From NCBI RefSeq assembly GCF_026151205.1, contig NC_087072.1, forward strand, positions 17,873,669-17,933,668: DNA of 60,000 bases, written 5' to 3'. Positions 13,863 to 55,663 of the stretch are shown one piece after another. Source of the DNA: Bolinopsis microptera. Lineage: Eukaryota > Ctenophora > Tentaculata > Lobata > Bolinopsidae. The notes beneath the pieces are model-generated. The model did not search any database. It saw only the letters and a list, made by a program, of their open reading frames with translations, and was not told the origin of the DNA. The first letter of the stretch is position 1; the number at the start of each line of letters is the position of its first letter. The position numbers and the translations under genes were made by a program.

Positions 13863-14118
13863 AATTGTAATTGTAAACCAATCACCTGGTCACACGTAAT
13901 GAATAAACTCGTTATGCTTCATATCTCGGTCATCTGAAAAGCTACAGTTCTAATTTTTTCAGGACATACGTAATTCGAATGGCCAAACACAATTTAATAA
14001 AATTTGGCTCGATCCAACTATCAAAACTATCAAATAAATGCAAAAATGAACGTTCATTTGAAAAAAATGAACTCGAATATTTTTCGATTTGACAAATTCC
14101 TCGAACCACTGGTGGTAC

Positions 14119-14534: not shown

Positions 14535-15136
14535 CTATTGTCCATGATGAGGAGGGGGGTGGTGAGGATGGGGATGGTAATGAGGGGGATGATGAGGAGG
14601 GGGATGGTGAGGAGGTCCACCGTGGGGAGGTCCACCGAAAGGAGGTCCACCGTGAGGAGGTCCACCGTGAGGAGGTCCACCGTGAGGAGGTCCACCGTGA
14701 GGAGGTCCACCGTGGGGAGGTCCACCGTGGGGAGGTCCACCGTGGGGAGGTCCACCGAAAGGAGGTCCACCGTGAGGAGGTCCACCGTGAGGAGGTCCAC
14801 CGTGAGGAGGTCCACCGTGAGGAGGTCTACCGTGGGGAGGTCCACCGTGGGGAGGTCCACCGAAAGGAGGTCCACCGTGAGGAGGTCCACCGTGAGGAGG
14901 TCCACCGTGAGGAGGTCCACCGTGAGGAGGTCCACCGTGGGGAGGTCCACCGTGGGGAGGTCCACCGCGAGGAGGTCCACCGCGAGGAGGTCCACCGCGA
15001 GGAGGTCCACCGCGAGGAGGTCCACCGCGAGGAGGTCCACCGCGAGGAGGTCCACTGCGAGGAGGTCCACCGCGAGGAGGTCCACCGCGAGGAGGTCCAC
15101 CATTAGGAGGAGATCCACGTTGTCTGTGTCCTTGGC
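14535..15136 (-). CDS. terminal exon: GGPP(H/R/F) repeat tail of the giant gene
   Basis: The acceptor (TTCCTTCTCAG) precedes 15136. The exon starts in phase 1, matching the donor of the preceding exon at 15626. It encodes [12 protein letters not shown], then about 33 Gly-Gly-Pro-Pro-X pentapeptides, then a His/Pro-rich end and a TAG at 14537-14535. X is Arg in the first part and mostly His later, with Phe at intervals of 7-8 repeats. Such low-complexity Gly/Pro tails are expected to be disordered and extended. Aromatic or basic X residues could mediate cohesion or matrix binding (inference). All other frames of this 15-bp repeat are open too; splice phase and the acceptor are what select the minus-strand frame. 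Confidence 0.75.
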
Positions 15137-18100
15137 CTGAGAAGGAATTTAATTTTTTAAATCCGGTCACGGCCGATTTTTGTATCTAATCAGTACCCTT
15201 CAAGGCTTATATAATAAGTGTTCTCCTACAGATATGGATATGCTCATATTTTGTACAGTACATGTAATCTGTAACAGCACCAAATTCTTGTTTCTGCAGT
15301 CATCGTGTCTTATCAGGATTAAAAAACCCATCATAAGGTAAGTTAAGCAACACCATGGTTCAATGATTAGCTGGAACATTGCAAACACAATATTTGGTCC
15401 GACGAACCAAACATTTCAAAGCCCTTCAGTGCATGCGTATGATACAGCAGCCAACTAAAGGTTTCAATAGAGTACGATGACATTTGATTTAAATGTTTAT
15501 CTGTAGACTGTTTTCTTGCTAGATGTCTGCTCAAATATTTATAGTTCAAATGTAGTTTTGAATGTGATAGCACTAACCAAAATATACTCTTCAAATTCAA
15601 TTAAAGATATGTAGTCAAAATTTACCGTTATGAGTGGAGGTTGAAATTGTTTTGGTCCAGGATACTTCGTGGCTAGGACTATTTTTGAGTGAAGTTCCTT
15701 TTCTAAGAGTAAATTTCTTTGTTTTGGGCTCGAACGTGATTCCTCCACAATCTGTAGTGTGATGATATTTAATTGTAAAATTGATTTAAATTAATTCACA
15801 AAAAGACAATTGCAAATCTTATCGCAATAGTATAAAAATCAAGTTAAATATTTAGTGAGAAAGCACAATTTAATACTACATGAAATAAATAAGTGTCAAT
15901 GGTTATGAACCTTTACGCTGGTAGCATTGTTTAGCAGCCTCTTGAAGATTAGGGTAATTGTGTTGTCCACTACTGTACCCAGAAAGGTATTTTCCGTTGT
16001 GTTGACTCCAAGTTACCTTAACTCTTCGAACTGTTGTACTTGTTCTACGAACTGGAAAAGGAAACGAATTTAAGTTTTTTCCTAGGGACCCACAAAGAAT
16101 GTATGTTTATATATTCGATACTGGTCAATGGTGCACCTAAATCCCATCAACATTCCAACATCCCTTTTTCAATATCATTTGCAGATAAATTACCCTTAAC
16201 GACAGATGTGAAATTTTATAGAATAAGGCGCCGTTTCACAAAGTAGCTAATGAGAAACTGCGTGAGAGCAACTTCGTGAGCGAGGACACGTGAAAATCAT
16301 TCCAGCTATATCAACGAACAGGTCCTTGACATTGGAGGAGGGATGATCTGAGTCTGGAATCATTTTTCTATATAGAGAAGCCATGTAAATAAAGATTTTA
16401 TTGTATATTATTTGACAATCACATTTTTCCGATTGTACTGACTAGATATAAAATACTCAAATTCATGTTATATCTCACCGGAAGTCGCTCCACCTTTTCC
16501 AGTTGTAGTTGTAGTTGTTTTGGTCCAGGATATTTCGTGGCTAGGACTTTTTTTGAGTGATGTTCCTTTTCTTAGAGTAAATTTCTTTGTTTTGGGCTCG
16601 AACGTGATTCCTCCACAATCTGTTAATAAATGATATTAATCATTGAGTAAAGTGAACGACTTAAGATTTTAAGCTATCTAAAAGTGAAAATATTGCTACG
16701 TATTCAGTGCAGAGAAGGCAAATATTACTGCTTCATATAAAATGTTATGAAAGATAAGTGTCAACAGTTATGAACCTTTACGCTGGTAGCATTGTTTAGC
16801 AGCCTCTTGAAGATTAGGGTAATTGTGTTGTCCACTACTGTACCCAGAAAGGTATTTTCCGTTGTGTTGACTCCAAGTTACCTTAACTCTTCGAACTGTT
16901 GTACTTGTTCTACGAACTTGAAAAGGAAACGAATTTAAATTATTTTCCTAGGGACCCACAAAAAATGTATGATTATATATACGATACTGGTCAATGGTGC
17001 ACCTAAATCCCATCAACATTCCAACATCCCTTTATCAATATCATTTGCAGATAAATTACCCTTAACGACAGATGTGAAATTTTATAGAATAAGGCGCCGT
17101 TTCACAAAATAGCTAATGAGAAACTGCGTGAGAGCAACTTCGTGAGCGAGGACACGTGAAAATCATTCCAGCTATATCAACGAACAGGTCCTTGACATTG
17201 GAGGAGGGATGATCTGAGTCTGGAATCATTTTTCTATATAGAGAAGCCATGTAAATAAAGATTTTATTGTATATTATTTGACAATCACATTTTTCCGATT
17301 GTACTGACTATATATAAAATACTCAAATTCATGTTATAGATTAATATATCTCACCGGAAGTCGCTCCACCTTTTCCAGTTGTAGTTGTAGTTGTTTTGGT
17401 CCAGGATATTTCGTGGCCAGGACTTTTTTTGAGTGATGTTCCTTTTCTTAGAGTAAATTTCTTTGTTTTGGGCTCGAACGTGATTCCTCCACAATCTGTT
17501 AATAAATGATATTAATCATTGAGTAAAGTGAACGACTTAATATTTTAAGCTATCTAAAAGTGAAAATATTGCTACGTATTCAGTGTAGAGAAGGCAAATA
17601 TTACTGCTTCATATAAAATGTTATGAAAGATAAGTGTCAATGGTTACGAACCTTTACGCTGGTAGCATTGTTTAGCAGCCTCTTGAAGATTAGGGTAATT
17701 GTGTTGTCCACTACTGTACCCAGAAAGGTATTTTCCGTTGTGTTGACTCCAAGTTACCTTAACTCTTCGAACTGTTGTATTTGTTCTACGAACTTGAAAA
17801 GGAAACGAATTTAAATTATTTTCCTAGGACCCACAAAAATGTATGATTATATATACAATACTGATCAATGGTGCACCTAAATCTCATTGTAGTTTGAAAA
17901 GGAAGTGTAAATAAAGGTTATATTGTATATTATTTGGCAATCACATTTTTCCGATTGTACTGACTAGATATAAAATACTCAAATTCATGTTATAGATTAA
18001 TATATCTCACCGGAAGTCGCTCCACCTTTTCCAGTTGTAGTTGTAGTTGTTTTGGTCCAGGATATTTCGTGGCTAGGACTTTTTTTGAGTGATGTTCCTT

Positions 18101-21100
18101 TTCTTAGAGTAAATCTCTTTGTTTTGGGCTCGAACGTGATTCCTCCACAATCTGTTAATAAATGATATTAATCATTGAGTAAAGTGAACGACTTAAGATT
18201 TTAAGCTATCTAAAAGTGAAAATATTGCTACGTATTCAGTGTAGAGAAGGCAAATATTACTGCTTCATATAAAATGTTATGAAAGATAAGTGTCAACAGT
18301 TACGAACCTTTACGCTGGTAGCATTGTTTAGCAGCCTCTTGAAGATTAGGGTAATTGTGTTGTCCACTACTGTACCCAGAAAGGTATTTTCCGTTGTGTT
18401 GACTCCAAGTTACCTTAACTCTTCGAACTGTTGTACTTGTTTTACGAACTTGAAAGAAACGAATTTCAGTTATTTCCCAAGGAGTACACAAATCATAAGA
18501 ATTTAAGCGCTTTAAAAATGAATCAAATTCACCAAAAATAGATTCGTAATGGCAAATATATACGACGATTTTATCAACCTCCCCAACCAAAATTACAGAA
18601 TTGGTCCTACAATTCCAAAAGATAATTCTTCAACCAATAAACATACATATGAGCACTTATTGACATCAATATACTTGCTTACATACCGACTGTTTTTGTA
18701 GCTGTGGTAGGTACTCCAGAAACAGGACATTTGTAGATTACATTTCCAGTGTTCGTTCCAACAACTTCATCTCCATATATCTCTATCTGCATCAACTTTC
18801 CAGGTATATGTACCCATCCAGTACCGGTTGGTCTTGAAGCACTCATTCCTTTACGGTAGTAAATGTTGTTGCCAGAGTTCACACCAACAACAATATTGCT
18901 ACCAGACGATATCCACTTCAACTTGCCACCAATGTGGGTCCACTGTAACGATTTCCAGTCAATTGAAATTAGTTATGGAAATGTTAATGGATAAAACTGG
19001 CTATTCATTTGAAAAACTAATTCTTATGCTCTCAAAGAATTTGATAATTCGTTGTTGGACTGTTAGCTTAGACATTGATTTATGAATCTTTGGACAAATG
19101 CAAGTTTCACCAGGCGTGGGTTCCTTGACAATTTACTTTCTTAATTTATTATCATCTTAATTTAGTCACTTACTCCAGATCCAGCAGTATTGCTGTCTCC
19201 ATATGTTCCTTTTCGATAGTAAATGTTATTTGCTCTGTTGACTACCCAAACTCCAGATGGTCCCACAGTAACTTGTATAGCCTTCCCTCCAATGTGCTGC
19301 CAGTTCTTTCCAGTCCATCTATAGATATTCTGATGTTTGCTGACTCCCCAAACATGACCGTTGTCACTGACATCAAGCTGAAAGAAAATTCCGTCCATGA
19401 AATCATATAGCTATTCCCGAAAACAGTTCATGCTCTCTATTCTACTATCAAGAAGTAATTAGAAGATTAGAAGTCGTTGATTTAATACTGTCTACAGAAA
19501 TTACTCACATTGGTAAGTGCACCAGGTATTCGCTGCCATTTGTTATGACCCGCATATCTATAGATCTGACCATGTCTGTTGACTCCCCATACAGACGAAC
19601 CAGATGAAATTTGTACTAAGTTACCAGGTATTTTAGTCCAGCTTTTTCCTACGAGAACGTTTCTTTTTAATGACCAATCTAACAATACTCATTAACGATA
19701 AATATGGTTATTTCATATTTAATCTTCGCTAATTTGCAACAAATGTTGTTTGTTGATAAACTATTTCGTTTGATAAATTAATGATAAGTTTCAATACCGT
19801 TACTGTTAAGCTTGTAGATATTTCCTCCCCTGTTAACACCCCACACGCCAGATCTTCCTTTGGAGATACGAATCAGTCTTCCTGGTATAGCTTGCCATTT
19901 AGCAGTAACTGCAACTCCAGATGTCACCTTAACTTTTCCACCTAAAGTGTTTAAAATCAAATCGATTGCTCATTATTCCAAATATTTCATACACTGCATG
20001 GTATAAACCTTAGCTAAATACTAAATTAGCATTTCCTTCTAGAATCTAGAAGTAGGCAAAGTATCTCAAAAGGCAAGAACAAAGTTTTTTATCAAGTTGA
20101 TAATAGTTATAATAAACTCAGCAATTTTTGTATAGATATTACAAGATCTTAAAAAACTGTTTACAAAATGATTATAGACACACGACACACATGATCTCAG
20201 CTTTAATATTATGAGTATTCATGATTTAGTTTGAAGATCAAAATGCTTACCACTGCTTGTAGGTATATTACAGTAGTCCCATCGAGGCTTAGTTCCCTCA
20301 GCATTATAACACCAGGCGCCTTTTGATGCACTGAGGAAAATGACGACACATGTTATAATGAAGAATTTCTAAAAGTAAAAAGAAATTTCACAGATGATTT
20401 ATATTCCAAAGCCCCTTCATTGCAGTTTTATCGTAGATTTTACTTAAATCTACAATAAATTTTTGTGCCCCTACCTTGTGCTCGACTTGATAACAATCCT
20501 TATGGAACACTACCGGATATCAGATATTGAAGACTTACCCGGATGGATTTCTGCAATAGTTGTTTTGCAGTCCTGAATGAGGGTATCTGAAAATGTTTTT
20601 GTAATAAGCTATTTTCCTAAAGTAGGTAGTGTTGTGAATCGTAACTAATAATTTGGCTTCTGTCGAGAGCCCATTTAGAAACATTTCGAAGTTTGGGTGT
20701 AAAATGATTTAGGACGCTCGATTAAATATAGTACATGTCTCATCTTCCAAAATCCGAATAATCTGGATAAGAATAAATCTAAATCTGGATTATGCCGTAT
20801 TGTGGCCGCCTGTGGGTGAGACTAGCTTATACCTGTTGTGCCTTAGAAGCACCAATAAAACTTACTTCTTAGGAGAGTATTTGTGTTTATTAGGTGAATT
20901 AGAGTCCCATCTCTGGCAGACGTGTCCTGATTTTGTGCGGGATACAGTTCCCCTGTAGTCTGATCCTTTCTTATCCGCTTTATGAACACCTTCGTCTGGA
21001 GCTGGAGTTAATCCATTTGTTATTCTTTTTAGAAACGTTAATAATGAATAAAAGTAGTTTCTTGATAAACGATGGCTTGATAGTGGGGTAAATTGGGTTT

Positions 21101-24100
21101 GCGGTAAATCTGCGTTTGCGGTAAATTTGAGCGCAGTAAATCTGCATTTGTGGTAAATTGGAACGCAGTAAATCGGAATCTGTAAACAAGGCCAGGGCAG
21201 GGTAAATCGGACTTCTGTGTCAAAACTCAACTAAAAACCTGGATTGAAAAATATGAGATTTTCCTGAAAGATCAATATTGTATACTTTTGCGAATGAGTA
21301 TATGTCAAACATATGAAGACCAAACAATGTACCTCCAACAGGCTGTTTAGGAGGCAAGAGTTTGACAATGAATCACATTCACCGAAAATAGATTTGTAAT
21401 GGCAAATATATACGACGATTTTATCAACCTCCCCAACTAAAATTACAGAATTGGTCCTACAATTCCAAAAGATAACGCTTCAACCAATAAACATACATAT
21501 GAGCACTTATTGACATCAATATACTTGCTTACATACCGACTGTTTTTGTAGCTGTGGTAGGTACTCCAGAAACAGGACATTTGTAGATTACATTTCCAGT
21601 GTTCGTTCCAACAACTTCGTCTCCATATATCTCTATCTGCATCAACTTTCCAGATATATGTACCCATCCAGTACCTGTTGGTCTTGAAGCACTCATTCCT
21701 TTACGGTAGTAAATGTTGTTGCCAGAGTTCACACCAACAACAATATTGCTACCAGACGATATCCACTTCAACTTGCCACCAATGTGGGTCCACTGTAACG
21801 ATTTCCAGTCAATTGAAATTAGTTATGGAAATGTTAATGGATAAAAATGGCTATTCATTTGAAAAACTAATTCTTATGCTCTCAAAGAATTTCATAATTC
21901 GTTGTTGGACTGTTAGCTTAGACATTGATTTATGAATCTTTGGACAAATGCAAGTTTCACCAGGCGTGGGTTCCTTGACAATTTACTTTCTTAATTTATT
22001 ATCATCTTAATTTTGTCACTTACTCCAGATCCAGCAGTATTGCTGTCTCCATATGTTCCTTTTCGATAGTAAATGTTATTTGCTCTGTTGACTACCCAAA
22101 CTCCAGATGGTCCCACAGTAACTTGTATAGCCTTCCCTCCAATGTGCTGCCAGTTCTTTCCAGTCCATCTATAGATATTCTGATGTTTGCTGACTCCCCA
22201 AACATGACCGTTGTCACTGACATCAAGCTGAAAGAAAATTCCGTCCATGAAATCATATAGCTATTCCAGAAAACAGTTCATACTCTCTATTCTACTATCA
22301 AGAAGTAATTAGAAGATTAGAAGTCGTTGATTTAATACTGTCTACAGAAATTACTCACATTGGTAAGTGCACCAGGTATTCGCTGCCATTTGTTATGACC
22401 CGCATATCTATAGATCTGACCATGTCTGTTGACTCCCCATACAGACGAACCAGATGAAATTTGTACTAAGTTACCAGGTATTTTAGTCCAGCTTTTTCCT
22501 ACGAGAACGTTTCTTTTTAATGACCAATCTAACAATACTCATTAACGATAAATATGGTTATTTCATATTTAATCTTCGCTAATTTGCAACAAATGTTGTT
22601 TGTTGATAAACTATTTCGTTTGATAAATTAATGATTAGTTCAATACCGTTACTGTTAAGCTTGTAGATATTTCCTCCCCTGTTAACACCCCACACGCCAG
22701 ATCTTCCTTTGGAGATACGAATCAGTCTTCCTGGTATAGCTTGCCATTTAGCAGTAACTGCAACTCCAGATGTCACCTTAACTTTTCCACCTAAAGTGTT
22801 TAAAATCAAATCGATTGCTCATTATTCCAAATATTTCATACACTGCATGGTATAAACCTTAGCTAAATACTAAATTAGCATTTCCTTCTAGAATCTAGAA
22901 GTAGGCAAAGTATCTCAAAAGGCAAGAACAAAGTTTTTTATCAAGTTGATAATAGTTATAATAAACTCAGCAATTTTTGTATAGATATTACAAGATCTTA
23001 AAAAACTGTTTACAAAATGATTATAGACACACGACACACATGATCTCAGCTTTAATATTATGAGTATTCATGATTTAGTTTGAAGATCAAAATGCTTACC
23101 ACTGCTTGTAGGTATATTACAGTAGTCCCATCGAGGCTTAGTTCCCTCAGCATTATAACACCAGGCGCCTTTTGATGCACTGAGGAAAATGACGACACAT
23201 GTTATAATGAAGAATTTCTAAAAGTAAAAAGAAATTTCACAGATGATTTATATTCCAAAGCCCCTTCATTGCAGTTTTATTGTAGATTTTACTTAAATCT
23301 ACAATAAAAGTTTGTGCCCCTACCTTGTGCTCGACTTGATAACAATCCTTATGGAACACTACCGGATATCAGATATTGAAGACTTACCCGGATGGATTTC
23401 TGCAATAGTTGTTTTGCAGTCCTGAATGAGGGTATCTGAAAATGTTTTTGTAATAAGCTATTTTCCTAAAGTAGGTAGTGTTGTGAATCGTAACTAATAA
23501 TTTGGCTTCTGTCGAGAGCCCTTTTAGAAACATTTCGAAGTTTGGGTGTAAAATGATTTAGGACGCTCGATTAAATATAGTACATGTCTCATCTTCCAAA
23601 ATCCGAATAATCTGGATAAGAATAAATATAAATCTGGATTATGCCGTATTGTGGCCGCCTGTGGGTGAGACTAGCTTATACCTGTTGTGCCTTAGAAACA
23701 CCAATAAAACTTACTTCTTAGGAGAGTATTTGTGTTTATTAGGTGAATTAGAGTCCCATCTCTGGCAGACGTGTCCTGATTTTGTGCGGGATACAGTTCC
23801 CCTGTAGTTTGATCCTTTCTTATCCGCTTTATGAACACCTTCGTCTGGTGCTGGAGTTAACCCATTTGTTATTCTTTTTAGAAACATTAATAATGAATAA
23901 AAGTAGTTTCTTGATAAACGATGGCTTGATAGTGGGGTAAATTGGGTTTGCGGTAAATCTGCGTTTGCGGTAAATTGGAGCGCAGTAAATCTGCATTTGT
24001 GGTAAATTGGAACGCAGTAAATCGGAATCTGTAAACAAGGCCAGGGCAGGGTAAATCGGACATCTGTGTCAAAACTCAACTAAAAACCTGGATTGAAAAA

Positions 24101-27100
24101 TATGAGATTTTCCTGAAAGATCAATATTATATACTTTTGCGAATGAGTATATGTCAAACATATGAAAACCAAACAATGTACCTCCAACAGGCTGTTTAGG
24201 AGGCAAGAGTTTGACAATGAATCACATTCACCGAAAATAGATTCGTAATGGCAAATATATAAGACGATTTTATCAACCTCCCCAACTAAAATTACAGAAT
24301 TGGTCCTACAATTCCAAAAGATAACGCTTCAACCAATAAACATACATATGAGCACTTATTGACATCAATATACTTGCTTACATACCGACTGTTTTTGTAG
24401 CTGTGGTAGGTACTCCAGAAACAGGACATTTGTAGATTACATTTCCAGTGTTCGTTCCAACAGCTTCATCTCCATATATCTCTATCTGCATCAACTTTCC
24501 AGGTATATGTACCCATCCAGTACCGGTTGGTCTTGAAGCACTCATTCCTTTACGGTAGTAAATGTTGTTGCCAGAGTTCACACCAACAACAATATTGCTA
24601 CCAGACGATATCCACTTCAACTTGCCACCAATGTGGGTCCACTGTAACGATTTCCAGTCAATTGAAATTAGTTATGGAAATGTTAATGGATAAAACTGGC
24701 TATTCATTTGAAAAACTAATTCTTATGCTCTCAAAGAATTTGATAATTCGTTGTTGGACTGTTAGCTTAGACATTGATTTATGAATCTTTGGAAAAATGC
24801 AAGTTTCACCAGGCGTGGGTTCCTTGACAATTTACTTTCTTAATTTATTATCATCTTAATTTTGTCACTTACTCCAGATCCAGCAGTATTGCTGTCTCCA
24901 TATGTTCCTTTTCGATAGTAAATGTTATTTGCTCTGTTGACTACCCAAACTCCAGATGGTCCCACAGTAACTTGTATAGCCTTTCCTCCAATGTGCTGCC
25001 AGTTCTTTCCAGTCCATCTATAGATATTCTGATGTTTGCTGACTCCCCAAACATGACCGTTGTCACTGACATCAAGCTGAAAGAAAATTCCGTCCATGAA
25101 ATCATATAGCTATTCCAGAAAACATTTCATACTCTCTATTCTACTATCAAGAAGTAATTAGAGGATTAGAAGTCGTTGATTTAATACTGCCTACAGAAAT
25201 TACTCACATTGGTAAGTGCACCAGGTATTCGCTGCCATTTGTTATGACCCACATATCTATAGATCTGACCATGTCTGTTGACTCCCCATACAGACGAACC
25301 AGATGAAATTTGTACTAAGTTACCAGGTATTTTAGTCCAGCTTTTTCCTACGAGAACGTTTCTTTTTAATGACCAATCTAACAATACTCATTAACGATAA
25401 ATATGGTTATTTCATATTCAATCTTCGCTAATTTGCAACAAATGTTGTTTGTTGATAAACTATTTCGTTTGATAAATTAATGATTAGTTCAATACCGTTA
25501 CTGTTAAGCTTGTAGATATTTCCTCCCCTGTTAACACCCCACACGCCAGATCTTCCTTTGGAGATATGAATCAGTCTTCCTGGTATAGCTTGCCATTTAG
25601 CAGTAACTGCAACTCCAGATGTCACCTTAACTTTTCCACCTAAAGTGTTTAAAATCAAATCGATTGCTCATTATTCCAAATATTTCATACACTGCATGGT
25701 ATAAACCTTAGCTAAATACTAAATTAGCATTTCCTTCTAGAATCTAGAAGTAGGCAAAGTATCTCAAAAGGCAAGAACAAAGTTTTTTATCAAGTTGATA
25801 ATAGTTATAATAAACTCAGCAATTTTTGTATAGATATTACAAGATCTTAAAAAACTGTTTACAAAATGATTATAGACACACGACACACATGATCTCAGCT
25901 TTAATATTATGAGTATTCATGATTTAGTTTGAAGATCAAAATGCTTACCACTGCTTGTAGGTATATTACAGTAGTCCCATCGAGGCTTAGTTCCCTCAGC
26001 ATTATAACACCAGGCGCCTTTTGATGCACTGAGGAAAATGACGACACATGTTATAATGAAGAATTTCTAAAAGTAAAAAGAAATTTCACAGATGATTTAT
26101 ATTCCACAGCCCCTTCATTGCAGTTTTATTGTAGATTTTACTTAAATCTACAATAAAAGTTTGTGCCCCTACCTTGTGCTCGACTTGATAACAATCCTTA
26201 TGGAACACTACCGGATATCAGATATTGAAGACTTACCCGGATGGATTTCTGCAATAGTTGTTTTGCAGTCCTGAATGAGGGTATCTGAAAATGTTTTTGT
26301 ATTAAGCTATTTTCCTAAAGTAGGTAGTGTTGTGAATCGTAACTAATAATTTGGCTTCTGTCGAGAGCCCATTTAGAAACATTTCGAAGTTTGGGTGTAA
26401 AATGATTTAGGACGCTCGATTAAATATAGTACACTAGAAACCCGCTAGTCGAAAGCTTTGTTCGAGGAAATTTTAAAAATCAGTTATGTTTTTATTTCTC
26501 TTCATCATACAGCTCTGTTATACAGTAGACATAATGGAATTTATTTAACAATGGCGACAGCGTTGTTAGTATTCGGATTCCCAAAACGATACTTTTTACC
26601 GCATCAAAAAATACCAATCACAACCAAAGTTATGAATATAAGTCATAGCGTGAGCGTAAATGTGAGCTAGTTTTGAAGTTATGACGTAGCATACAGCATA
26701 ACAACGTGCGTAGTTAAGATGTTCTTGCTCGCGCACGTGCATTTTTATCGTTGCTACGCAACAGCGCAGTAAACCTTTGCTAAAATAACGCCATCTTACT
26801 ATATATAAAGCGAGACGACATCAGAGGACGTTAATCAAAGGTACTCTTCCCAAGGTTGAAGACTTGTCAATGGAAAACATGTCCAGAACAGTTGTAAATC
26901 TTACAGACAAAGAGCTTAGTAAAGAGCAACTCTATGTCTTTTTCTTGTCTCACAAGTTTGCACCTACACCTCCCCTACCAGATCTAAGCCGCTTCGAGAA
27001 CGATCTGTGTAGATGGTTTTCTAAAATGAGAGCTAAAGTTGTATTTGATAGCTTTAAATGTGGACCCAACAAAGCAGATAAGAGAGTTACTGACATGGAA

Positions 27101-45100: not shown

Positions 45101-48100
45101 ATCAAAAAAACCCGCTCCATCGTCTATGTATCTTTTTACTGTTGACACGTTTTTCATCAAGTGTTCATCAGAATATACTACTTTTCTCATGTAATAGTAA
45201 ACTGCTATATTCGCAATTTGTACACAGAGGCTTCCTCCCGTTGGTATTCCGACTAGTTGTTGGTAGCAATCACCTTCAAATTGGCCAATAGAAGCTCTGA
45301 AGCTGAGGTCTACGAGGGCAAGGATCCATTGTTTGAACTCCTCACTCCATTCCGTTCGACATTCAGTCATAGCAACAGTTAGGGCTTCCATCGCCAAATC
45401 GGGTTTAAGAGAATCGTATAATGCCTTGTAGTCAAAAGCAAAGCTTCTGAGCCGGCGTTTAGTATTGTGATCAAATGAACTGTTGATGCCGTCTAACCAG
45501 TTAAGTGCATCTCCAGAGTCGATAAGTAGATCCCCACAAAATTCACGTTCCAATGAGCGTAAAAATGTGTCAGCAAGGTAAACATCTGAACGTCTTGTAA
45601 CTCCCTCTTGGAGTGCTGTAATAAGCCTTGCGGGTGGCTCAACACCAGGTTTCAAAGATGGAATATAATTGGACTAATTTCATATCTTAGTTCAAGATTA
45701 TAAATCGTCATTCGTCATCATATTGATAAGTTGACTTCATGATGGTTAAATTGGTTTTTTTCTTAACAATTGAAAATGAATAAAGCTGATTTATAAATTT
45801 CAAATTTTAATCACCTTCAGTCTTTGAGTTCAGAGAGTTGGAATTGCCAGTACGTTTTGCTAGAACCATGTTAGCACTCAAGAGATGTCCTTTACCGGTC
45901 AACCTCCTGGCTCCGTTGTGTTTCTTCTTCAACCAACAGTAACTGTCTTTCTTGCGCATGGTGAAAGAGGCGCAACCTTTCTGTTTTCTACAGTTGTTGT
46001 AACAATCTCTGAGACCCTTGCTTCGGAAGCTCCTGATGTCAGCACCCCAGTAGTCTACGTTATTTTCAACACGGGCTGAAACAAATTAGGTTATCATATC
46101 AAGGCGGCTTATAACAATTAACAACTGTAGATAGAATATAACTAGACTAATTTCAGATCTTAGTTCAAGATCATAAAGGTCATCATATTGATAAATTGAC
46201 TTCTTGATGATGAAATTGTTTTTTTTTCTTAACAATTGAAAATGAATAAAGCCGATTTATAACTCTTTAATTTTAAACACCTTCAGTCCTTGAGTTCAGA
46301 GAGTTGGCATTGCCAGTACGTTTTGCTAGAACCATGTTAGCACTCAAGAGATGTCTTTTATTGGTCAACCTCCTAGCTCCGTTGTGTTTCTTCTTCAACC
46401 AACAGTAACTGTCTCTCTTGCGCATTGTGAAAGAGGCACAACCTTTCTGTTTTCTACAGTTGTTGTAACAATCTCGGAGACCCTTGCTTCGGAAGTTCCT
46501 GATGTCAGCACCCCAGTAGTCTACGTTATTTTCAACACGGGCTGAAACAAATTAAGTTATCATATCAAGGCGGCTTATAACAACTGTAGATAGAATATAA
46601 CTAATCTAATTTCAGATCTTAGTTCAAGATCATAAATGGTCATCATATTGATAAATTGACTTCTTGACGATGAAATTGTTCTTTTTTCTTAACAATTGAA
46701 AATGAATAAAGCCGATTTATAACTCTTTAATTTTAAACACCTTCAGTCCTTGAGTTCAGAGAGTTGGCATTGCCAGTACGTTTTGCTAGAACCATGTTAG
46801 CACTCAAGAGATGTCTTTTATTGGTCAACCTCCTGGCTCCGTTGTGTTTCTTCTTCAACCAACAGTAACTGTCTCTCTTGCGCATTGTGAAAGAGGCACA
46901 ACCTTTCTGTTTTCTACAGTTGTTGTAACAATCTCGGAGACCCTTGCTTCGGAAGTTCCTGATGTCAGCACCCCAGTAGTCTACGTTATTTTCAACACGG
47001 GCTGAAACAAATTAAGTTATCATATCAAGGCGGCTTATAACAACTGTAGATAGAATATAACTGGACTAATTTCAGATCTTAGTTCAAGATCATAAATGGT
47101 CATCATATTGATAAATTGACTTCTTGATGATGAAATTGTTTTTTTTTTTCCTTAACATTTGAAAATGAATAAAGCCGATTTATAACTCTTTAATTTTAAA
47201 CACCTTCAGTCCTTGAGTTCAGAGAGTTGGCATTGCCAGTACGTTTTGCTAGAACCATGTTAGCACTTAAGAGATGTCTTTTATTGGTCAACCTCCTGGC
47301 TCCGTTGTGTTTCTTCTTCAACCAACAGTAACTGTCTCTCTTGCGCATTGTGAAAGAGGCACAACCTTTCTGTTTTCTACAGTTGTTGTAACAATCTCGG
47401 AGACCCTTGCTTCGGAAGTTCCTGATGTCAGCACCCCAGTAGTCTACGTTATTTTCAACACGGGCTGAAACAAATTAAGTTATCATATCAAGGCGGCTTA
47501 TAACAACTGTAGATAGAATATAACTAGACTAATTTCAGATCTTAGTTCAAGATCATAAATGGTCATCATATTGATAAATTGACTTCTTGACGATGAAATT
47601 GTTTTTTTTTCTTAACAATTGAAAATGAATAAAGCCGATTTATAACTCTTTAATTTTAAACACCTTCAGTCCTTGAGTTCAGAGAGTTGGCATTGCCAGT
47701 ACGTTTTGCTAGAACCATGTTAGCACTCAAGAGATGTCTTTTATTGGTCAACCTCCTGGCTCCGTTGTGTTTCTTCTTCAACCAACAGTAACTGTCTCTC
47801 TTGCGCATTGTGAAAGAGGCACAACCTTTCTGTTTTCTACAGTTGTTGTAACAATCTCGGAGACCCTTGCTTCGGAAGTTCCTGATGTCAGCACCCCAGT
47901 AGTCTACGTTATTTTCAACACGGGCTGAAACAAATTAAGTTATCATATCAAGGCGGCTTATAACAACTGTAGATAAAATATAACTGGACTAATTTCAGAT
48001 CTTAGTTCAAGATCATAAATGCTCATCATATTGATAAATTGACTTCTTGATGATGAAATTGTTTTTTTTTCCTTAACATTTGAAAATGAATAAAGCCGAT

Positions 48101-51100
48101 TTATAACTCTTTAATTTTAAACACCTTCAGTCCTTGAGTTCAGAGAGTTGGCATTGCCAGTACGTTTTGCTAGAACCATGTTAGCACTTAAGAGATGTCT
48201 TTTATTGGTCAACCTCCTGGCTCCGTTGTGTTTCTTCTTCAACCAACAGTAACTGTCTCTCTTGCGCATTGTGAAAGAGGCACAACCTTTCTGTTTTCTA
48301 CAGTTGTTGTAACAATCTCGGAGACCCTTGCTTCGGAAGTTCCTGATGTCAGCACCCCAGTAGTCTACGTTATTTTCAACACGGGCTGAAACAAATTAAG
48401 TTATCATATCAAGGCGGCTTATAACAACTGTAGATAGAATATAACTGGACTAATTTCAGATCTTAGTTCAAGATCATAAATGCTCATCATATTGATAAAT
48501 TGACTTCTTGATGATGAAATTGTTTTTTTTTTTCCTTAACATTTGAAAATGAATAAAGCCGATTTATAACTCTTTAATTTTAAACACCTTCAGTCCTTGA
48601 GTTCAGAGAGTTGGCATTGCCAGTACGTTTTGCTAGAACCATGTTAGCACTTAAGAGATGTCTTTTATTGGTCAACCTCCTGGCTCCGTTGTGTTTCTTC
48701 TTCAACCAACAGTAACTGTCTCTCTTGCGCATTGTGAAAGAGGCACAACCTTTCTGTTTTCTACAGTTGTTGTAACAATCTCGGAGACCCTTGCTTCGGA
48801 AGTTCCTGATGTCAGCACCCCAGTAGTCTACGTTATTTTCAACACGGGCTGAAACAATTTGAATTATCATATGTAGGTGACACAACTTGATGCTCAAGTT
48901 GTATCTGTATTGATTTATAACTCAAACAGTTGGAGTTTTAAGAAAGTAACCATGGAGAAAATAGACACACTTCATCGTAGACACCTGAGGTCCATTTTAA
49001 ACATCAAATGGCCTAAAGGTACGATAAGCAACAAAGCATTGTATGAAAGGTGCATAGTTGAAAAGTTATCCAAGCGTATCTAACACCAGCTGTGGAAGAT
49101 GTTCGGACACATTCTAAGGAGTATGGAGAACACCCCAGCCCAAACGGCTTTCTCTTTTGCTATTGAATCAGATAATTCATTTAATGGAAGATTGGGGAGA
49201 CCTAGAATGAACTTGTTGTCTATTTTAAGAAGTGATTTAAGTAGTAGAAATCTGCACATAGATAACTTGCATGAATTAAACGAAATCAAAGATATAGCTG
49301 CATGCAACAGATGTTGGGAAAATCTGTTTCAAGGGTACAGTTTACCGCATTAAGGTATTTTTATGAATCATTTTTGTCGGTAAGATCCTGTTTTATAATA
49401 ATAATAATATGTAGGTGGTTTTTTTAACTGCAGATGAATGTAACTGGTCATTCGGATATTAATTCAAAATCATAAACCATCATCATATTCATAAGTTGAC
49501 AATGACTTCGTGATCATGAAATTGGTTTTTTCTGCATTAACAATAGAAAAACGAATAAAGCCGATTTATAACTTTTCAATTTTAATCACCTTCAGTCTTT
49601 GAGTTCAAGGAATTCATATTCCCTTGACGTCCTGAAAGTTGAATTCATGAGGGAATAAAGTATTAGAGATGACGAAGTTATCAAGCATTTTATTTATCTC
49701 GTTAACAAAATTGACTGGGTGATTATGTGATTACTTAATCAACGACCAAACCCCCCCCCCCCCCCCCCCCCCCCCCCGTAATCACTAATCAACCTTACCG
49801 CGGAAGCTCTGACATCTTCCATGGGGACATGGCTTGTGTTGGTCTCCCGCGCAGCACAAACTGTCTCTCTGAATCACACTGCCGTCACACTTGGCACCCT
49901 GAGGTTTGTAGTGCTTCTCCTTGTTCGATTTACAACAGTGCTGGCCGTTGTAGTAGACGTGTGGATGGGAAGGAGGACATTGAGCTGAAAAATTATTTGT
50001 AACAATAATGTGCAACGGGGTGGTTAACGGGGTCACCTAATCACGTGAGTAGGTAAACCAATCACCTGATCACACGTAATAAATAAACTCGTTATGCTTC
50101 ATATCTCGGTCTTATATCTTATACAAAAACTAAGAACTTTGAAACCTTATGGTATTAATTCATGTGATCCTTTTGGTATGCCACTTTTATTTGAAAATAA
50201 AACTTTTGATAATGGTCCTTAAATTATTTCACCCTTATATATATTAATGCAGGGACTAGTATTTTTCTACTAGTTGGGGCCTCACAACCCCCCATACCCG
50301 AGTGCTTCCCATTCCCTTTTTAAGAGTTTGACTTCTTTTTACCTAACATCCTTTCGTTTTAATTATAATTTTCTGATTTAATTGGAGTATTAACCCTTAT
50401 CTTTATTAGGTACTGAAAATTTCCGAAAATGTTTCACCAATGATGTTATAAAGATTTTGTTGGAACTTTTTAACTCATTCGTTGTCTGACTGTGGGAACT
50501 ATTGATTTTTGATCATATCTCGGTCATCTGAGAAGCTACAGTTCTAATTTTTTTCAGGACAAACGTTATTCAAATGGCCAAACACAATTTAATAAAATTT
50601 GGCTCAATCCGACTATCCAAACTATCAAATAAATGCAAAAATGAACGTTCATTTGAAAAAAAATGAACTCGAATATTTTTCTATTTGACAAATTCCTCGA
50701 ACCAGTGGTGGTAGTAAGTCATACCAGAAAAAATTATTTCAATTGGGCACTCAGTGACTGAGCTATTAAGGCCAACGTATATTGTACACTACTTTTGGCC
50801 CACCCTGTATCAATAAATATTGAGTATTGACGCAATAAAGTATTTGTTGGCAATTTAACTATGAAGATGCTCACATTTCTAACATCTTGTTATAAATTTA
50901 CTTCATTAAATTCACATGCTAAAAAGCTGTGTTCGAAATTTGGATTTTGAACTGAATAATCACAATGCTGGCAAGCATTACCGTTGCCCTTATATTCACA
51001 ACACTATTTACCCCCTATACTATTATATCCCCTTTATTGTTTTCCAGGCATTACTCATCGAAAGTAGTTCAGCAGGTATATTTAAGCTCAAAACATTCTA

Positions 51101-54100: not shown

Positions 54101-55663
54101 CCGCTCAAAGTTTGCACGTGCGAAAGGTGAGAATTTTGCTCATTCGTGATTTCGAATATGTTCTGCTTTCCCACGAGATTTAATGGCATTATATATGAAT
54201 TTAATGCCAACTTGAATGAGTAAAAAGTGCCATATTCAATCTGTTATCGACATATATACCTACCTAAACACAAGGAAATGTTTTCAAAGGTAAAATTTCG
54301 AAATTGTTAATGAAGTTTCGACTGTGCAAATTATCCTGACATTATAATCAAAAAGAGATGATATTTGACCAAAACCCATAATCATGGGTAGAGTGAACCG
54401 TTGCCAGTGTCTCTCTTTTCCAAACAAAAGGAAATGATATTAATTTGAATAACCGTCCGCAAATGCAAATTGATACCGAGAATGAAATCGGTCGCTCGCT
54501 TTTTCAAATCAATAAGCTTTATTAAAATTCGTAAGCCGTGATCGAATGGAAAAAGCGAGCGACCGATTTCATTCTCGGTATCAATTTGCATTTGCGGACG
54601 GTTATTCAAATTAATATCATTTCCTTTTGTTTGGAAAAGAGAGACACTGGCAACGGTTCACTCTACCCATGATTATGGGTTTTGGTCAAATCAGTCATAT
54701 CAAATATGACACATACCGTGTTGTCTTTTCGGAGGTCTTCTTGGAGGACCAAGGTTTCTTCTTGGAGGACCACCTCTTCTTGGACGGAAGCTCTGACATC
54801 TTCCATGGGGACATGGCTTGTGTTGGTCTCCCGCGCAGCACAAACTGTCTCTCTGAATCAAACTGCCGTCACACTTGGCACCCTGAGGTTTGTAGTGCTT
54901 CTCCTTGTTCGATTTACAACAGTGCTGGCCGTTGTAGTAGACGTGTGGATGGGAAGGAGGACATTGAGCTGAAAAATTATTTGTAACAATTTGGCAATTT
55001 AACTATGAAGATGCTCACATTTCTAACATCTAATTATAAATTTACTTCATTAAATTCACATGCAAAAAAGCTGGGTTCGAAATTTGGATTTTGAACTGAA
55101 TAATCAGTCATATCAAATATGACACATACCGTGTTGTCTTCTCGGAGGTCTTCTTGGAGGACCAAGGTTTCTTCTTGGAGGACCACCTCTTCTTGGACGG
55201 AAGCTCTGACATCTTCCATGGGGACATGGCTTGTGCTGGTCTCCCGCGCAGCACAAACTGTCTCTCTGAATCACACTGCCGTCACACTTGGCACCCTGAG
55301 GTTTGTAGTGCTTCTCCTTGTTCGATTTACAACAGTGCTGGCCGTTGTAGTAGACGTGTGGATGGGAAGGAGGACATTGAGCTGAAAAATTATTTGTAAC
55401 AATTTGGCAATTTAACTATGACGATGCTCACATTTCTAACATCTAGTTATAAATTTACTTCATTAAATTCACATGCAAAAAAGCTGGGTTCGAAATTTGG
55501 ATTTTGAACTGAATAATCAGTCATATCAAATATGACACATACCGTGTTGTCTTCTCGGAGGTCTTCTTGGAGGACCAAGGTAATGACGTTCAGAATCTGC
55601 TTCAGCATCAACAGAAAGTGTGATAACAAATAGCAGCGCACAAACAAAGCTGAAGAGCCTCAT
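14535..55663 (-). CDS. giant modular secreted protein, about 70 exons, predicted single gene
   Basis: Exons from 55663 down to 14535 all have AG/GT borders and join in one frame to 14,388 bases (4,795 residues; one base less as sequenced because of a deletion near 31651). Approximate order: 1-40 signal peptide and GPPRR tail; 41-270 three 8-cysteine domains; 271-284 linker; 285-2968 31 PAN/apple-like domains; 2969-3216 tectonin propeller; 3217-4224 three kringle-plus-tectonin modules; 4225-4595 four copies of a 94-residue domain (the last shorter); 4596-4795 Gly/Pro-rich tail. Every module boundary is phase 1. The signal-peptide start and the terminal stop each occur once, at opposite ends, which favours one gene. 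Family knowledge: PAN, kringle-type and tectonin modules bind proteins or carbohydrates outside cells. Inference: a secreted matrix, mucus, adhesive or recognition protein. Alternative: several genes, since each 2849-bp kringle unit has an in-frame upstream ATG and a stop just past its last donor. Individual blocks are listed separately. Confidence 0.62.
14612..15105. repeat. 15-bp tandem repeat, about 33 copies
   Basis: The unit is GGAGGTCCACCGTGA with variants at the last three bases (TGA, TGG, CGA, AAA). Units with AAA recur about every 105-120 bp, showing a higher-order repeat. It encodes the GGPPX tail on the minus strand. Confidence 0.97.
15626..18448 (-). CDS. four tandem copies of a 94-residue two-exon domain (giant gene)
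   Basis: Exon pairs (B then A, 5' to 3'): 18448-18308/18151-18011; 17792-17652/17495-17355; 16916-16776/16619-16479; 16051-15911/15751-15626. The first seven exons are 141 bp and the last is 126 bp; all run phase 1 to phase 1. Exon B encodes [12 protein letters not shown] and [16 protein letters not shown]. Exon A encodes [20 protein letters not shown] and [10 protein letters not shown], followed in the first three copies by a Thr run and GKGGATS. Each copy has two cysteines that probably pair. I recognise the C-x-G-I-T...FTLR-x-G...S-P-x-x-E-x-S-W pattern as a recurring extracellular module of invertebrates but cannot assign a named family with certainty; it may be distantly apple-like. The last copy diverges after TKT and connects to the Gly/Pro tail. 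Confidence 0.75.
18687..21001 (-). CDS. kringle-like + six tectonin repeats, module 1 (giant gene, most 3')
   Basis: Seven exons: kringle 21001-20866, 20586-20539, 20330-20251; tectonin 19941-19798, 19648-19509, 19377-19174, 18942-18687. They total 1,008 bases (336 codons), phase 1 to phase 1. The kringle reads [20 protein letters not shown], then [16 protein letters not shown], then GAWCYN and PRWDYCNIP. It has only four of the usual six cysteines: the first and last are missing. Tectonin repeats show W-x-x-I-P-G-x-L and (V)WGVN-x-x-x-x-IY patterns; six fit a six-bladed propeller as in known tectonin-type lectins. There is no signal peptide upstream of the kringle; the preceding donor (module 2, 21537) matches its phase. 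Confidence 0.85.
21537..23850 (-). CDS. kringle-like + six tectonin repeats, module 2 (giant gene)
   Basis: Seven exons: 23850-23715, 23435-23388, 23179-23100, 22790-22647, 22498-22359, 22227-22024, 21792-21537. They are nearly identical to module 1, including introns, and offset by 2849-2850 bp. The frame is intact. The near identity of introns indicates a recent tandem duplication or ongoing homogenisation. Confidence 0.85.
24386..30521 (-). CDS. kringle-like + six tectonin repeats, module 3, split by a Penelope insertion (giant gene)
   Basis: Exons: 30521-30386, 26284-26237, 26028-25949, 25639-25496, 25347-25208, 25076-24873, 24641-24386. It is the same module as the preceding ones, offset 2849 bp, except that the intron between the first two kringle exons contains a 3.8-kb Penelope-like element in the antisense direction. 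Splice sites and frame are intact, so the module should still be usable if the enlarged intron is removed. Confidence 0.83.
26435..30256 (+). mobile_element. Penelope-like retroelement inserted in a kringle intron
   Basis: The 3,822-bp difference between this copy and the uninterrupted kringle introns of modules 1 and 2 defines the insertion. It encodes an RT and GIY-YIG nuclease in two overlapping-range frames (26864-27406 and 27433-29328), antisense to the host gene. About 900 bp follow the ORF; part may be 3' UTR and part an unrelated insertion. Target duplications are not clear. Confidence 0.85.
26864..29328 (+). pseudogene. Penelope RT-GIY-YIG protein with one frameshift
   Basis: The N-terminal part (26864-27406, 180 residues) and the main part (27433-29328, 631 residues) lie in different frames; a single-base change near 27404 would explain the break. 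The main part has RT signatures: PKAHKP, the metal-binding aspartate motif [19 protein letters not shown], and FLDTYVY. At the YxDD-box position it reads [11 protein letters not shown], so the second catalytic aspartate appears as glutamate. It continues with a Cys-rich segment ([11 protein letters not shown]) and a GIY-YIG domain ([20 protein letters not shown]), ending [14 protein letters not shown]. Length fits a nearly full Penelope-like protein. Probably inactive. Confidence 0.88.
31057..32309 (-). CDS. tectonin-only module 4, with a frameshift in one exon (giant gene)
   Basis: Exons 32309-32166, 32017-31878, 31746-31544 and 31312-31057 match the tectonin part of the other modules. No kringle exons precede it; it joins directly to the PAN array at 32617. 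One base is missing near 31651 (CCTTCCTCC where the other copies have CCTTCCCTCC), which frameshifts the third exon into an early stop. That exon is phase 0 to phase 0, so skipping it would restore the frame at the cost of about two tectonin repeats. A sequencing error is also possible. Confidence 0.8.
32617..48848 (-). CDS. array of 31 PAN/apple-like exons (giant gene)
   Basis: Each exon is 261 bp (87 codons), phase 1 to 1; the 3'-most is 222 bp. Low ends: 32617, 33051, 33517, 33982, 34448, 34914, 35380, 35846, 36304, 36764, 37230, 37695, 38161, 38619, 39085, 39550, 40016, 40482, 40948, 41414, 41880, 42346, 42805, 43271, 45815, 46281, 46741, 47204, 47664, 48125, 48588; high end is low+260 (first: 32838). 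Each encodes [49 protein letters not shown] or [13 protein letters not shown], then an Asn/Ser linker. Four cysteines and CWLK fit PAN/apple domains, which bind proteins or carbohydrates. The domain is strongly basic. The six copies at 46281-48848 form a subfamily ([13 protein letters not shown]); the rest have TGKGH and vary Lys/Leu before it. Introns are nearly identical too. Confidence 0.85.
43590..45655 (-). mobile_element. 5'-truncated Penelope-like element inside the PAN array
   Basis: A 2,066-bp insertion in a PAN intron, flanked by the 12-bp direct repeat AGATGGAATATA (43578-43589 and 45656-45667). It lies in the same orientation as the host gene. Its 3' end also occurs as a separate insertion at 50112-50513. 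Confidence 0.92.
43874..45655 (-). pseudogene. Penelope RT-GIY-YIG protein, 5'-truncated, one in-frame stop
   Basis: The frame from 45655 runs through RT motifs ([19 protein letters not shown], and the YxDD box [11 protein letters not shown], then CFLDIQF) to a single TAA at 44905-44903. It then continues in the same frame through a basic region, a Cys-rich segment (CHQRNCKCC), and a GIY-YIG nuclease ([22 protein letters not shown], and E in [10 protein letters not shown]), ending [14 protein letters not shown]. Apart from the stop and the missing N-terminus the protein is intact, so the insertion is young. Confidence 0.9.
48880..49406 (+). mobile_element. LINE 3' fragment with 11-bp target duplication
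   Basis: It is flanked by ATATGTAGGTG (48869-48879 and 49407-49417) and ends in a (TAA)n-like tail. The plus-strand frame encodes an RT C-terminal tail: [10 protein letters not shown], a [13 protein letters not shown] segment, one in-frame TAA at 49081, then MFGHILRSM and GRLGRPRMN. The stop and 5' truncation make it inactive. It sits in the intron upstream of the first PAN exon of the array, antisense to the giant gene. Confidence 0.88.
49590..49631 (-). CDS. 42-bp linker mini-exon (giant gene)
   Basis: AG/GT borders, phase 1 to phase 1, 14 codons including [10 protein letters not shown], which matches the C-terminal linker of the PAN exons. Its downstream intron is PAN-array type. It looks like a remnant of a PAN exon whose domain part was lost and whose acceptor was replaced. 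Confidence 0.6.
49751..49777. repeat. poly(C) tract
   Basis: A run of 27 C residues on the plus strand (poly-G on the transcript of the giant gene) in the intron next to the 8-cysteine exon. Length is likely unreliable in sequencing. Confidence 0.95.
49799..49984 (-). CDS. 8-cysteine domain exon, copy 3 (giant gene)
   Basis: 186 bp, phase 1 to 1, 62 codons. It encodes [33 protein letters not shown] and [10 protein letters not shown], with eight cysteines (C...CC...C...CC...C...C). The pattern with YxxGxxCC and CDGSxIxxxSxCC resembles small secreted cysteine-rich modules of invertebrates; I cannot name the family. Unlike copies 1 and 2 it lacks the GGPPRR extension and ends right after QSFR with its own donor. 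Confidence 0.75.
50112..50513 (+). mobile_element. Penelope 3'-end fragment
   Basis: A 402-bp insertion flanked by a 12-bp direct repeat CATATCTCGGTC (50100-50111 and 50514-50525). It encodes only the last 33 or so residues ([18 protein letters not shown]) and the 3' UTR of the element family at 43590-45655. The empty site is seen in repeat R copy 1 near 13.92 kb. Confidence 0.9.
50714..51182. repeat. intron remnant and fragment of repeat Q
   Basis: 50847-50960 matches the intron upstream of the 8-cysteine exons at 54.99 and 55.40 kb. 51045-51175 matches repeat Q (about 2.2-2.33 kb, reverse complement). No exon is visible. Confidence 0.6.
51183..53358. mobile_element. 2.2-kb non-coding DNA transposon with 38-bp terminal inverted repeats
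   Basis: The 38 bases at 51183-51220 (starting TATGGACACGTTC) are the exact reverse complement of 53321-53358. A flanking TA on each side would fit a Tc1/mariner-type insertion. The interior encodes no transposase. It carries many copies of a TTTACTTTGTCACAT-like motif: direct in the left two thirds (for example near 51.70, 52.05, 52.35, 52.62 kb) and inverted in the right part (for example near 52.85 and 53.01 kb). This resembles reiterated sub-terminal transposase sites. It is inserted into repeat Q. Confidence 0.75.
53359..53860. other. unassigned repeat-like DNA
   Basis: About 500 bp between the transposon and the resumption of repeat Q. It starts with a small ATATAT palindrome (53361-53380). 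No exon or element recognised. Confidence 0.4.
53861..54691. repeat. dispersed repeat Q, copy 2
   Basis: Reverse-complement match to 430-2330, uninterrupted where copy 1 holds the LINE fragment and the MITE. It ends in the perfect inverted repeat described separately. Confidence 0.8.
54363..54691. repeat. perfect 143-bp inverted repeat (long palindrome)
   Basis: 54363-54505 is the exact reverse complement of 54549-54691, with a 43-base spacer. It lies in the intron just 3' of 8-cysteine exon 2; the right arm ends 25 bases from that exon's donor. Transcribed, it would form a very stable hairpin. Confidence 0.95.
54717..54968 (-). CDS. 8-cysteine domain exon, copy 2, with GGPPRR extension (giant gene)
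   Basis: 252 bp, phase 1 to 1. It carries the same 8-cysteine domain as copy 3, then [18 protein letters not shown], then KRQHG. The Arg-rich Gly/Pro extension echoes the C-terminal GGPP tail of the same predicted protein. Differs from copy 1 by a Val-to-Leu change and a Lys for Arg. Confidence 0.8.
55130..55381 (-). CDS. 8-cysteine domain exon, copy 1, with GGPPRR extension (giant gene)
   Basis: 252 bp, phase 1 to 1, nearly identical to copy 2 and exactly 413 bp upstream of it. It has eight cysteines plus [18 protein letters not shown] and RRQHG. Confidence 0.8.
55543..55663 (-). CDS. signal-peptide exon, start of the giant gene
   Basis: The ATG is at 55663-55661 and the exon ends in phase 1. 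It encodes [20 protein letters not shown], a classical signal peptide with likely cleavage after VDA, then [19 protein letters not shown]. Its 3' half and following intron are identical to the ends of the 8-cysteine exons, so it is a hybrid of a signal exon and a third 413-bp repeat unit. No other exon in 14.5-55.7 kb encodes a signal peptide. Confidence 0.82.

Follow-up and report, generated by a model that had tools for sequence, protein, structure and literature searches.

A predicted secreted mosaic of PAN, tectonin and kringle modules in the genome of the ctenophore Bolinopsis microptera

Tectonin propellers are glycan-binding, and the ligands of PAN and kringle domains are proteins or glycans. 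Two described groups of proteins offer the closest comparisons for the locus reported here: the tectonin/tachylectin-1/fish-egg lectin family (PF19193; PDB 5fsb, 4ruq), in which tachylectin-1 and fish-egg lectin have an immune or opsonin-like role, and the HGF/plasminogen family, whose members are built from PAN, kringles and a protease-like domain. We analysed a stretch of 60,000 nucleotides from Bolinopsis microptera (hereafter the window; GCF_026151205.1, contig NC_087072.1, forward-strand positions 17,873,669 to 17,933,668), and establish here the exons, splice sites and domains of a long mosaic gene model, the splicing within its modules, and the presence of related mosaics in the same genome. 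The ctenophore origin is borne out by two ionotropic glutamate receptors of this genome: among PDB sequences the first matches Mnemiopsis leidyi ML032222a at 7e-120, well ahead of 4zdm (2.6e-66) and of glutamate receptor 2 or kainate 2 chains (about 3e-41), and the second also has ML032222a as its top match, by a narrower margin (3e-53 against 4.7e-41). COX1 (PF00115) had no match in the genome. The locus resembles the lectin family in that each tectonin unit comprises six W..IxG repeats, as counted by eye, and has sequence matches to both solved lectins; it differs in that a single exon series carries four of these units, separated by kringles and preceded by a PAN array. With the HGF/plasminogen family it shares PAN and kringle modules and a signal peptide, whereas the 31 PAN domains, the kringles lacking cysteines 1 and 6 and the added tectonin units set it apart. 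PAN and kringle modules occur in a single exon series with tectonin between them, as read from genomic exons. We found no trypsin-like C-terminal domain of the HGF/plasminogen type: Pfam searches with the five module types and the tail gave no protease match, and the last exons encode PAN-like units and a GGPPX tail.

The recognised modules are all of known kinds, and the predicted product would be a secreted shuffled mosaic protein, itself a known class. As far as the listings show, the combination and size are apparently undescribed: among the titles and abstract openings searched (tectonin with kringle or PAN, lectins, adhesives, tandem duplication and ctenophores), none showed this architecture, annotation databases being outside that search. 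A preliminary description of this locus had called the protein previously unfamiliar, which holds for the literature searched.

Between 55663 and 14535 the minus strand of the window carries 70 exons, with GT-AG borders at 69/69 introns, in line with the roughly 70 minus-strand exons first proposed (Table 1). The series starts at the signal-peptide exon (55663) and ends at the GGPPX tail (14535). The signal peptide is followed by Cys-rich modules 1-3, a short linker exon and the 31 PAN exons; tectonin 1, kringle 1, tectonin 2, kringle 2, tectonin 3, kringle 3 and tectonin 4 come next; and the fourth tectonin unit leads into four two-exon PAN-like units and the terminal GGPPX exon. Reading is open in 69 of the 70 exons, including every one of the 31 PAN exons. 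All modules have phase-1 borders on both sides, and since such uniform 1-1 modules join in frame in any combination, phase is weak evidence for one gene. For Pfam searches we used one copy of each module type, either a spliced unit or an exon. The 31 PAN domains and the tectonin propellers of the preliminary description are both borne out by the searches given below, while two module types that it left unnamed, one Cys-rich (three copies) and one two-exon and PAN-like (four copies), complete the series.

Table 1. Modules and exons of the predicted gene, in 5' to 3' order (positions in the window).
Feature	Position	Strand	Remark
TATATAAA	55846	-	~180 bases upstream of signal-peptide exon
Signal-peptide exon with ATG	55543..55663	-	ends in phase 1; single genome-wide match is itself
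Cys-rich exons 1 and 2	54717..55381 (55381-55130, 54968-54717)	-	Gly/Pro/Arg-rich linker in each
Cys-rich exon 3	49799..49984	-	
Short linker exon	49590..49631	-	by eye like the final 14 residues of a PAN exon
PAN block 1, 7 exons	45815..48848 (starts 48848, 48385, 47924, 47464, 47001, 46541, 46075)	-	261 nt each
PAN block 2, 24 exons	32617..43531 (first 43531-43271, last 32838-32617)	-	261 nt each, last 222 nt
Tectonin unit 1	31057..32309 (T1 32309-32166, T2 32017-31878, T3 31746-31544, T4 31312-31057)	-	T3 203 nt, frameshifted
Kringle 1	25949..30521 (K1 30521-30386, K2 26284-26237, K3 26028-25949)	-	
Tectonin unit 2	24386..25639 (25639-25496, 25347-25208, 25076-24873, 24641-24386)	-	
Kringle 2	23100..23850 (23850-23715, 23435-23388, 23179-23100)	-	
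Tectonin unit 3	21537..22790 (22790-22647, 22498-22359, 22227-22024, 21792-21537)	-	
Kringle 3	20251..21001 (21001-20866, 20586-20539, 20330-20251)	-	
Tectonin unit 4	18687..19941 (19941-19798, 19648-19509, 19377-19174, 18942-18687)	-	
PAN-like units, 4 x two exons	15626..18448 (18448-18308/18151-18011, 17792-17652/17495-17355, 16916-16776/16619-16479, 16051-15911/15751-15626)	-	
Terminal exon, GGPPX tail	14535..15136	-	201 codons from split glycine codon, stop included

The PAN array repeats with a period of about 466 bases, and its two blocks are split by a 2.3-kb intron holding transposon-like reading frames. One PAN exon matched the PAN_4 profile (E = 8.5e-8), a genome search with a PAN exon returned the 31 window exons at 94-100% identity, and all 31 encode four cysteines; the array therefore shows both hallmarks of PAN/apple domains, the four-cysteine core and the profile match, the latter taken from one exon. 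All 30 full-length PAN exons measure exactly 261 nt, whereas the 29 short inter-PAN introns fall into eight lengths of 197-212 nt, a constancy of exon length beside varied introns that is more than chance. Pairwise divergence in the array amounts to 0.018 per nonsynonymous site, 0.027 per synonymous site and 0.073 in introns, and dN/dS (0.53-0.79) is only moderately below one. Cys-rich exons 1 and 2 are 93.5-98% identical in DNA to four copies at C1:3.52 Mb. This module had no match in Pfam; its two matches in a PDB sequence search (E 0.36 and 0.6) were ubiquitin-conjugating enzymes and were taken as chance, and a single-sequence structure prediction was discarded (mean pLDDT 55.3, pTM 0.31). 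At about 49751-49777, some 20 bases past the donor of Cys-rich exon 3, the minus strand has a run of ~27 G, a weak point for assembly.

The spliced fourth tectonin unit matches PF19193 with E = 2.3e-53; among PDB sequences, the tectonin unit matches tectonin 2 (2.3e-36) and fish-egg lectin (1e-18), and it also matches the TECPR repeat PF06462 (3.1e-11). By inspection, all four units have the repeat number of a six-repeat propeller, the first with a frameshift. They are very alike, differing at 12/511 intron columns and 9/744 exon columns plus one gap in T3. The label 'kringle-like' used in the preliminary description was apt: the second kringle matches the Pfam kringle profile (PF00051, E = 2.5e-24), yet all three copies have four cysteines instead of the six that form three disulphides, with cysteines 1 and 6 both replaced in each, whereas both are kept in the two paralogous kringles at C1:3.52 Mb. 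For the tectonin units, dN/dS against the C10 copy is 0.65-0.75; for the kringles, calculated on exons 1 and 2 only, it is ~0.8-1.1 with one paralogue as reference and 2.8-3.0 with another (4-18 changes). Neither is clearly below one, and selection on these modules is therefore not demonstrated by the dN/dS test. The PAN-like unit (one searched) reaches E = 3.9e-4 against PAN_1 at 20.6 bits, short of the Pfam cut-off of 21.4. The GGPPX tail encodes 200 residues, mostly Pro, Gly, His and Arg, and had no match in Pfam; the splice phase sets its frame, because the 15-bp repeat can be read through in more than one. A 3.8-kb insertion (26434-30241), absent from the two sister units, occupies the first intron (K1-K2) of kringle 1. 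We rejected the idea that it destroyed this kringle, since the insertion is intronic and all three exons are intact.

For the tectonin, kringle and PAN-like modules, the predicted internal splicing is confirmed by intronless homologues. The intronless tectonin gene at C10:16345206 (86% protein identity) aligns over T1-T4 at the predicted borders, single-exon kringles such as C8:14429320 span the kringle exons (8-86 of 89), and single-exon homologues at C1:5161435 and C1:10697172 span the two-exon PAN-like unit. Support for the junctions between modules is partial. In the paralogue C1:3521285-3520839, a Cys-rich module and a PAN domain lie ~18 residues apart in one open frame, apparently as one exon; at the same locus (C1:3.52 Mb), a Cys-rich exon precedes a kringle by ~340 nt; and at C13:7.54 Mb a kringle and a tectonin unit lie on one strand, 2.9 kb apart. 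No case of PAN joined to tectonin was seen among the homologues examined in the genome. We also considered C13:7.54-7.56 Mb as one kringle-tectonin-PAN-like gene; this is doubtful, as the PAN-like unit at C13:7.55 Mb follows an apparent new signal-peptide exon (likely at 7555340) and is probably outside the kringle-tectonin gene there.

Our results differ from the preliminary description, which had the exons summing to 14,388 nt, a multiple of three, and joining in unbroken phase over about 4,795 residues. The sum is 14,387 nt, because the T3 exon of tectonin unit 1 has one nucleotide fewer than the 204 nt of its three sister copies; the earlier figure fits if 204 nt is assumed for this exon. 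In the assembled sequence the phase breaks here and translation stops after 3,107 residues. The exon is in phase 0-0, such that skipping it would restore the frame, and the other three tectonin units are intact, as is each of the three kringles. According to the published account of the assembly, at the point cited here, it was built with wtdbg and then polished by pilon with Illumina reads, and Iso-Seq and RNA-seq data went into its annotation (PMC10232365). Short-read polishing is presumably unreliable in units ~98-99% alike, and the break may therefore be an assembly error; it may also be allelic or a true lesion.

A single mRNA spanning every module is, we infer, the probable product, and a single giant protein is still the best model even though the one-nucleotide frame break and the T4 donor on an ancestral stop codon both weigh against it. 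A crude scan of the 41-kb minus strand for signal-peptide exons with a phase-1 donor found two candidates, at 55663 and, marginally, at 27288 inside the insertion; the plus strand gave none and five random resamples gave 0, 0, 0, 1 and 1. The exon at 55663, put forward previously as the sole signal-peptide exon, is thus the only good one. The T1 exons begin 307-309 nt downstream of the end of the preceding module, and none of the four tectonin units has an in-frame ATG between the last stop and T1.

A rather unlikely alternative is that several shorter products start at the one signal-peptide exon, many of them ending early or including few PAN exons. In its favour is the T4 donor, G|GTATGTAAG, which is homologous to the last codons of the stand-alone tectonin gene (Val-Gly-Met-stop there) and is followed, within the intron, by ~130 nt of that gene's 3' flank. 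A donor laid over an ancestral stop, with the flank retained, means that transcripts could end at T4, and with a former stop codon at the end of every T4 exon, the GGPPX exon is less certainly the 'only clear terminal exon' that it had been called. The phase-1 boundaries would let any module be skipped without loss of frame, and the frameshift in unit 1 would end a full-length product, unless T3 were skipped. In-frame stops also lie two codons behind 29/31 PAN exons and 4/4 T4 exons. As a sign of terminal exons we rejected the stops behind PAN exons, because validated internal exons show the same: stops follow K1 and K2 at one codon and the first exon of the PAN-like unit (P1) at two. The PAN donors further argue against early ends, agreeing with the splice-donor consensus MAG|GTRAGT at 7-8 of 9 positions, compared with 6/9 for T4, 5/9 for the validated T1 and 6-7/9 for the validated P1. 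A decaying or misassembled array, with a real frameshift, an untranslated 3' half and a copy number that is partly an assembly product, is improbable: one frameshifted exon, the G run, the dN/dS values of the tectonin and kringle modules and the expected weakness of a wtdbg and pilon assembly (PMC10232365) at near-identical repeats would fit it, but the openness of all other exons, the four cysteines throughout the PAN array and the intact remaining tectonin and kringle units stand against it.

Returning to the single gene, exon shuffling and tandem duplication would have built it. T1 begins within what, by eye, is the end of the signal peptide of the C10:16345206 tectonin gene, and T4 ends at that gene's stop codon. 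The mosaic units and this stand-alone secreted gene also share their six repeats, and the gene's 3' end is homologous to the end of T4 and the intron that follows; the gene differs in being intronless, in having its own signal peptide (by eye) and one propeller, and in ending where the mosaic splices on. The stand-alone form is presumably older than the mosaic units, in which case the former stop codon would serve T4 as splice donor, a placement that is noteworthy in itself. The window kringle unit is 95-96% identical over up to 1.2 kb, introns included, to one kringle at C1:3.52 Mb, and 88-95% identical in shorter pieces to the other. As we read the alignment, the T4-K1 intron of units 1-3 contains the end of a Cys-rich exon, the one found ahead of this kringle in the paralogue. 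The tectonin-kringle units would later have been duplicated in tandem, and comparison with the paralogues indicates that the window kringles lost cysteines 1 and 6 together. The locus shows how exon shuffling and tandem duplication can build very large extracellular proteins while the source modules are still recognisable.

For this predicted gene, transcription would run from ~55.8 to 14.5 kb and splicing would yield one long mRNA encoding a secreted protein of ~4,700-4,800 residues. From its modules we infer, with somewhat better than even confidence, that a single mRNA of this kind specifies a secreted, multivalent glycan-binding protein of an adhesive or mucus; its tissue, ligands and function are likewise proposals. 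Four six-bladed tectonin propellers would offer many glycan-binding sites, potentially ~24 (four propellers of six blades), and 31 PAN domains, four PAN-like units and three kringles would form a long chain of putative protein- or glycan-binding modules, with flexibility or cohesion supplied by linkers and a tail rich in Gly, Pro, His and Arg. Taken with the signal peptide and tail, these modules point to a multivalent secreted strand, adhesive or gel-forming, that would act in colloblast glue or in feeding or surface mucus by cross-linking glycans of prey, microbes or mucus. In the sections of PMC6278862 cited here, the TECPR beta-propeller repeat PF06462 is among the domains common to Mnemiopsis colloblast candidates and a toxin database; the tectonin unit matches this profile, and we count the link in favour of an adhesive. 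Against it we count two statements in the same sections, that the colloblast candidates have no significant domain overlap with toxins or known adhesives and that they show no low-complexity enrichment (PMC6278862). The colloblast adhesive is there termed undescribed, its candidate genes having no BLAST support for homology to known adhesives (PMC6278862, 2018). Tentacles and colloblasts have been lost in Beroe (PMC11184263). A fuller account is tentative: the product would be a giant structural part of ctenophore glue, in colloblast secretion or feeding mucus, of ~4,700 residues, with a changeable PAN array that unequal crossing-over resets in length and with captured modules in which the tectonin stop became a donor.

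We rank the adhesive or mucus strand first and an immune or opsonin-like secreted lectin, which is doubtful, second. The matches to tectonin 2 and fish-egg lectin in the PDB favour such a lectin, as do the F5/8-type galactose-binding domains of the related locus at C1:3.51-3.53 Mb, while a protein of this size, with its PAN array and Gly/Pro/His tail, seems better suited to be a structural strand than a soluble opsonin. As a giant lectin mosaic, the locus gives proteomic studies of mucus and tentacle secretion a definite gene to look for.

The locus is not an isolated oddity: elsewhere in this genome are a related mosaic and stand-alone genes with PAN, tectonin or kringle modules in tandem. 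The paralogous mosaic at C1:3.51-3.53 Mb shares with the window its Cys-rich modules (up to 98% in DNA), its kringle (up to 96% over 1.2 kb with introns) and PAN; unlike the window, it has F5/8-type galactose-binding domains, six-cysteine kringles and GPLPPHPP repeats, which are long (C1:3510001-3530000). A second giant PAN protein of different build is encoded at C9:1857479-1874587 (minus strand), in a 5,916-residue open frame with PAN matches throughout. Single open frames of 1,696 residues with seven tandem tectonin propeller matches (C10:1300607-1305616, plus strand) and of 1,593 residues with a long tandem row of kringles (C11:16207723-16212048, minus strand) were also found. Two PAN loci 168 kb apart, C12:6880033-6880977 and C12:7048470-7049414, have pairwise identical match scores, with a TAA inside one match each. 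A second intronless tectonin copy (C10:16357915-16358706) contains an in-frame TAA, and upstream of it, on the opposite strand, lies a frame that by eye resembles the transposon-like frame at 12968-13918 of the window. The latter (minus strand) has a weak GIY-YIG match below cut-off and is by eye similar to the frames at 43877-45673 (minus strand), two in number, which sit in the intron that separates PAN exons 7 and 8 and had no match in Pfam. Finally, a same-strand neighbour of the mosaic at 6371-6655 (minus strand) is an exon of a POT-family peptide transporter (PTR2, E = 1.7e-16).
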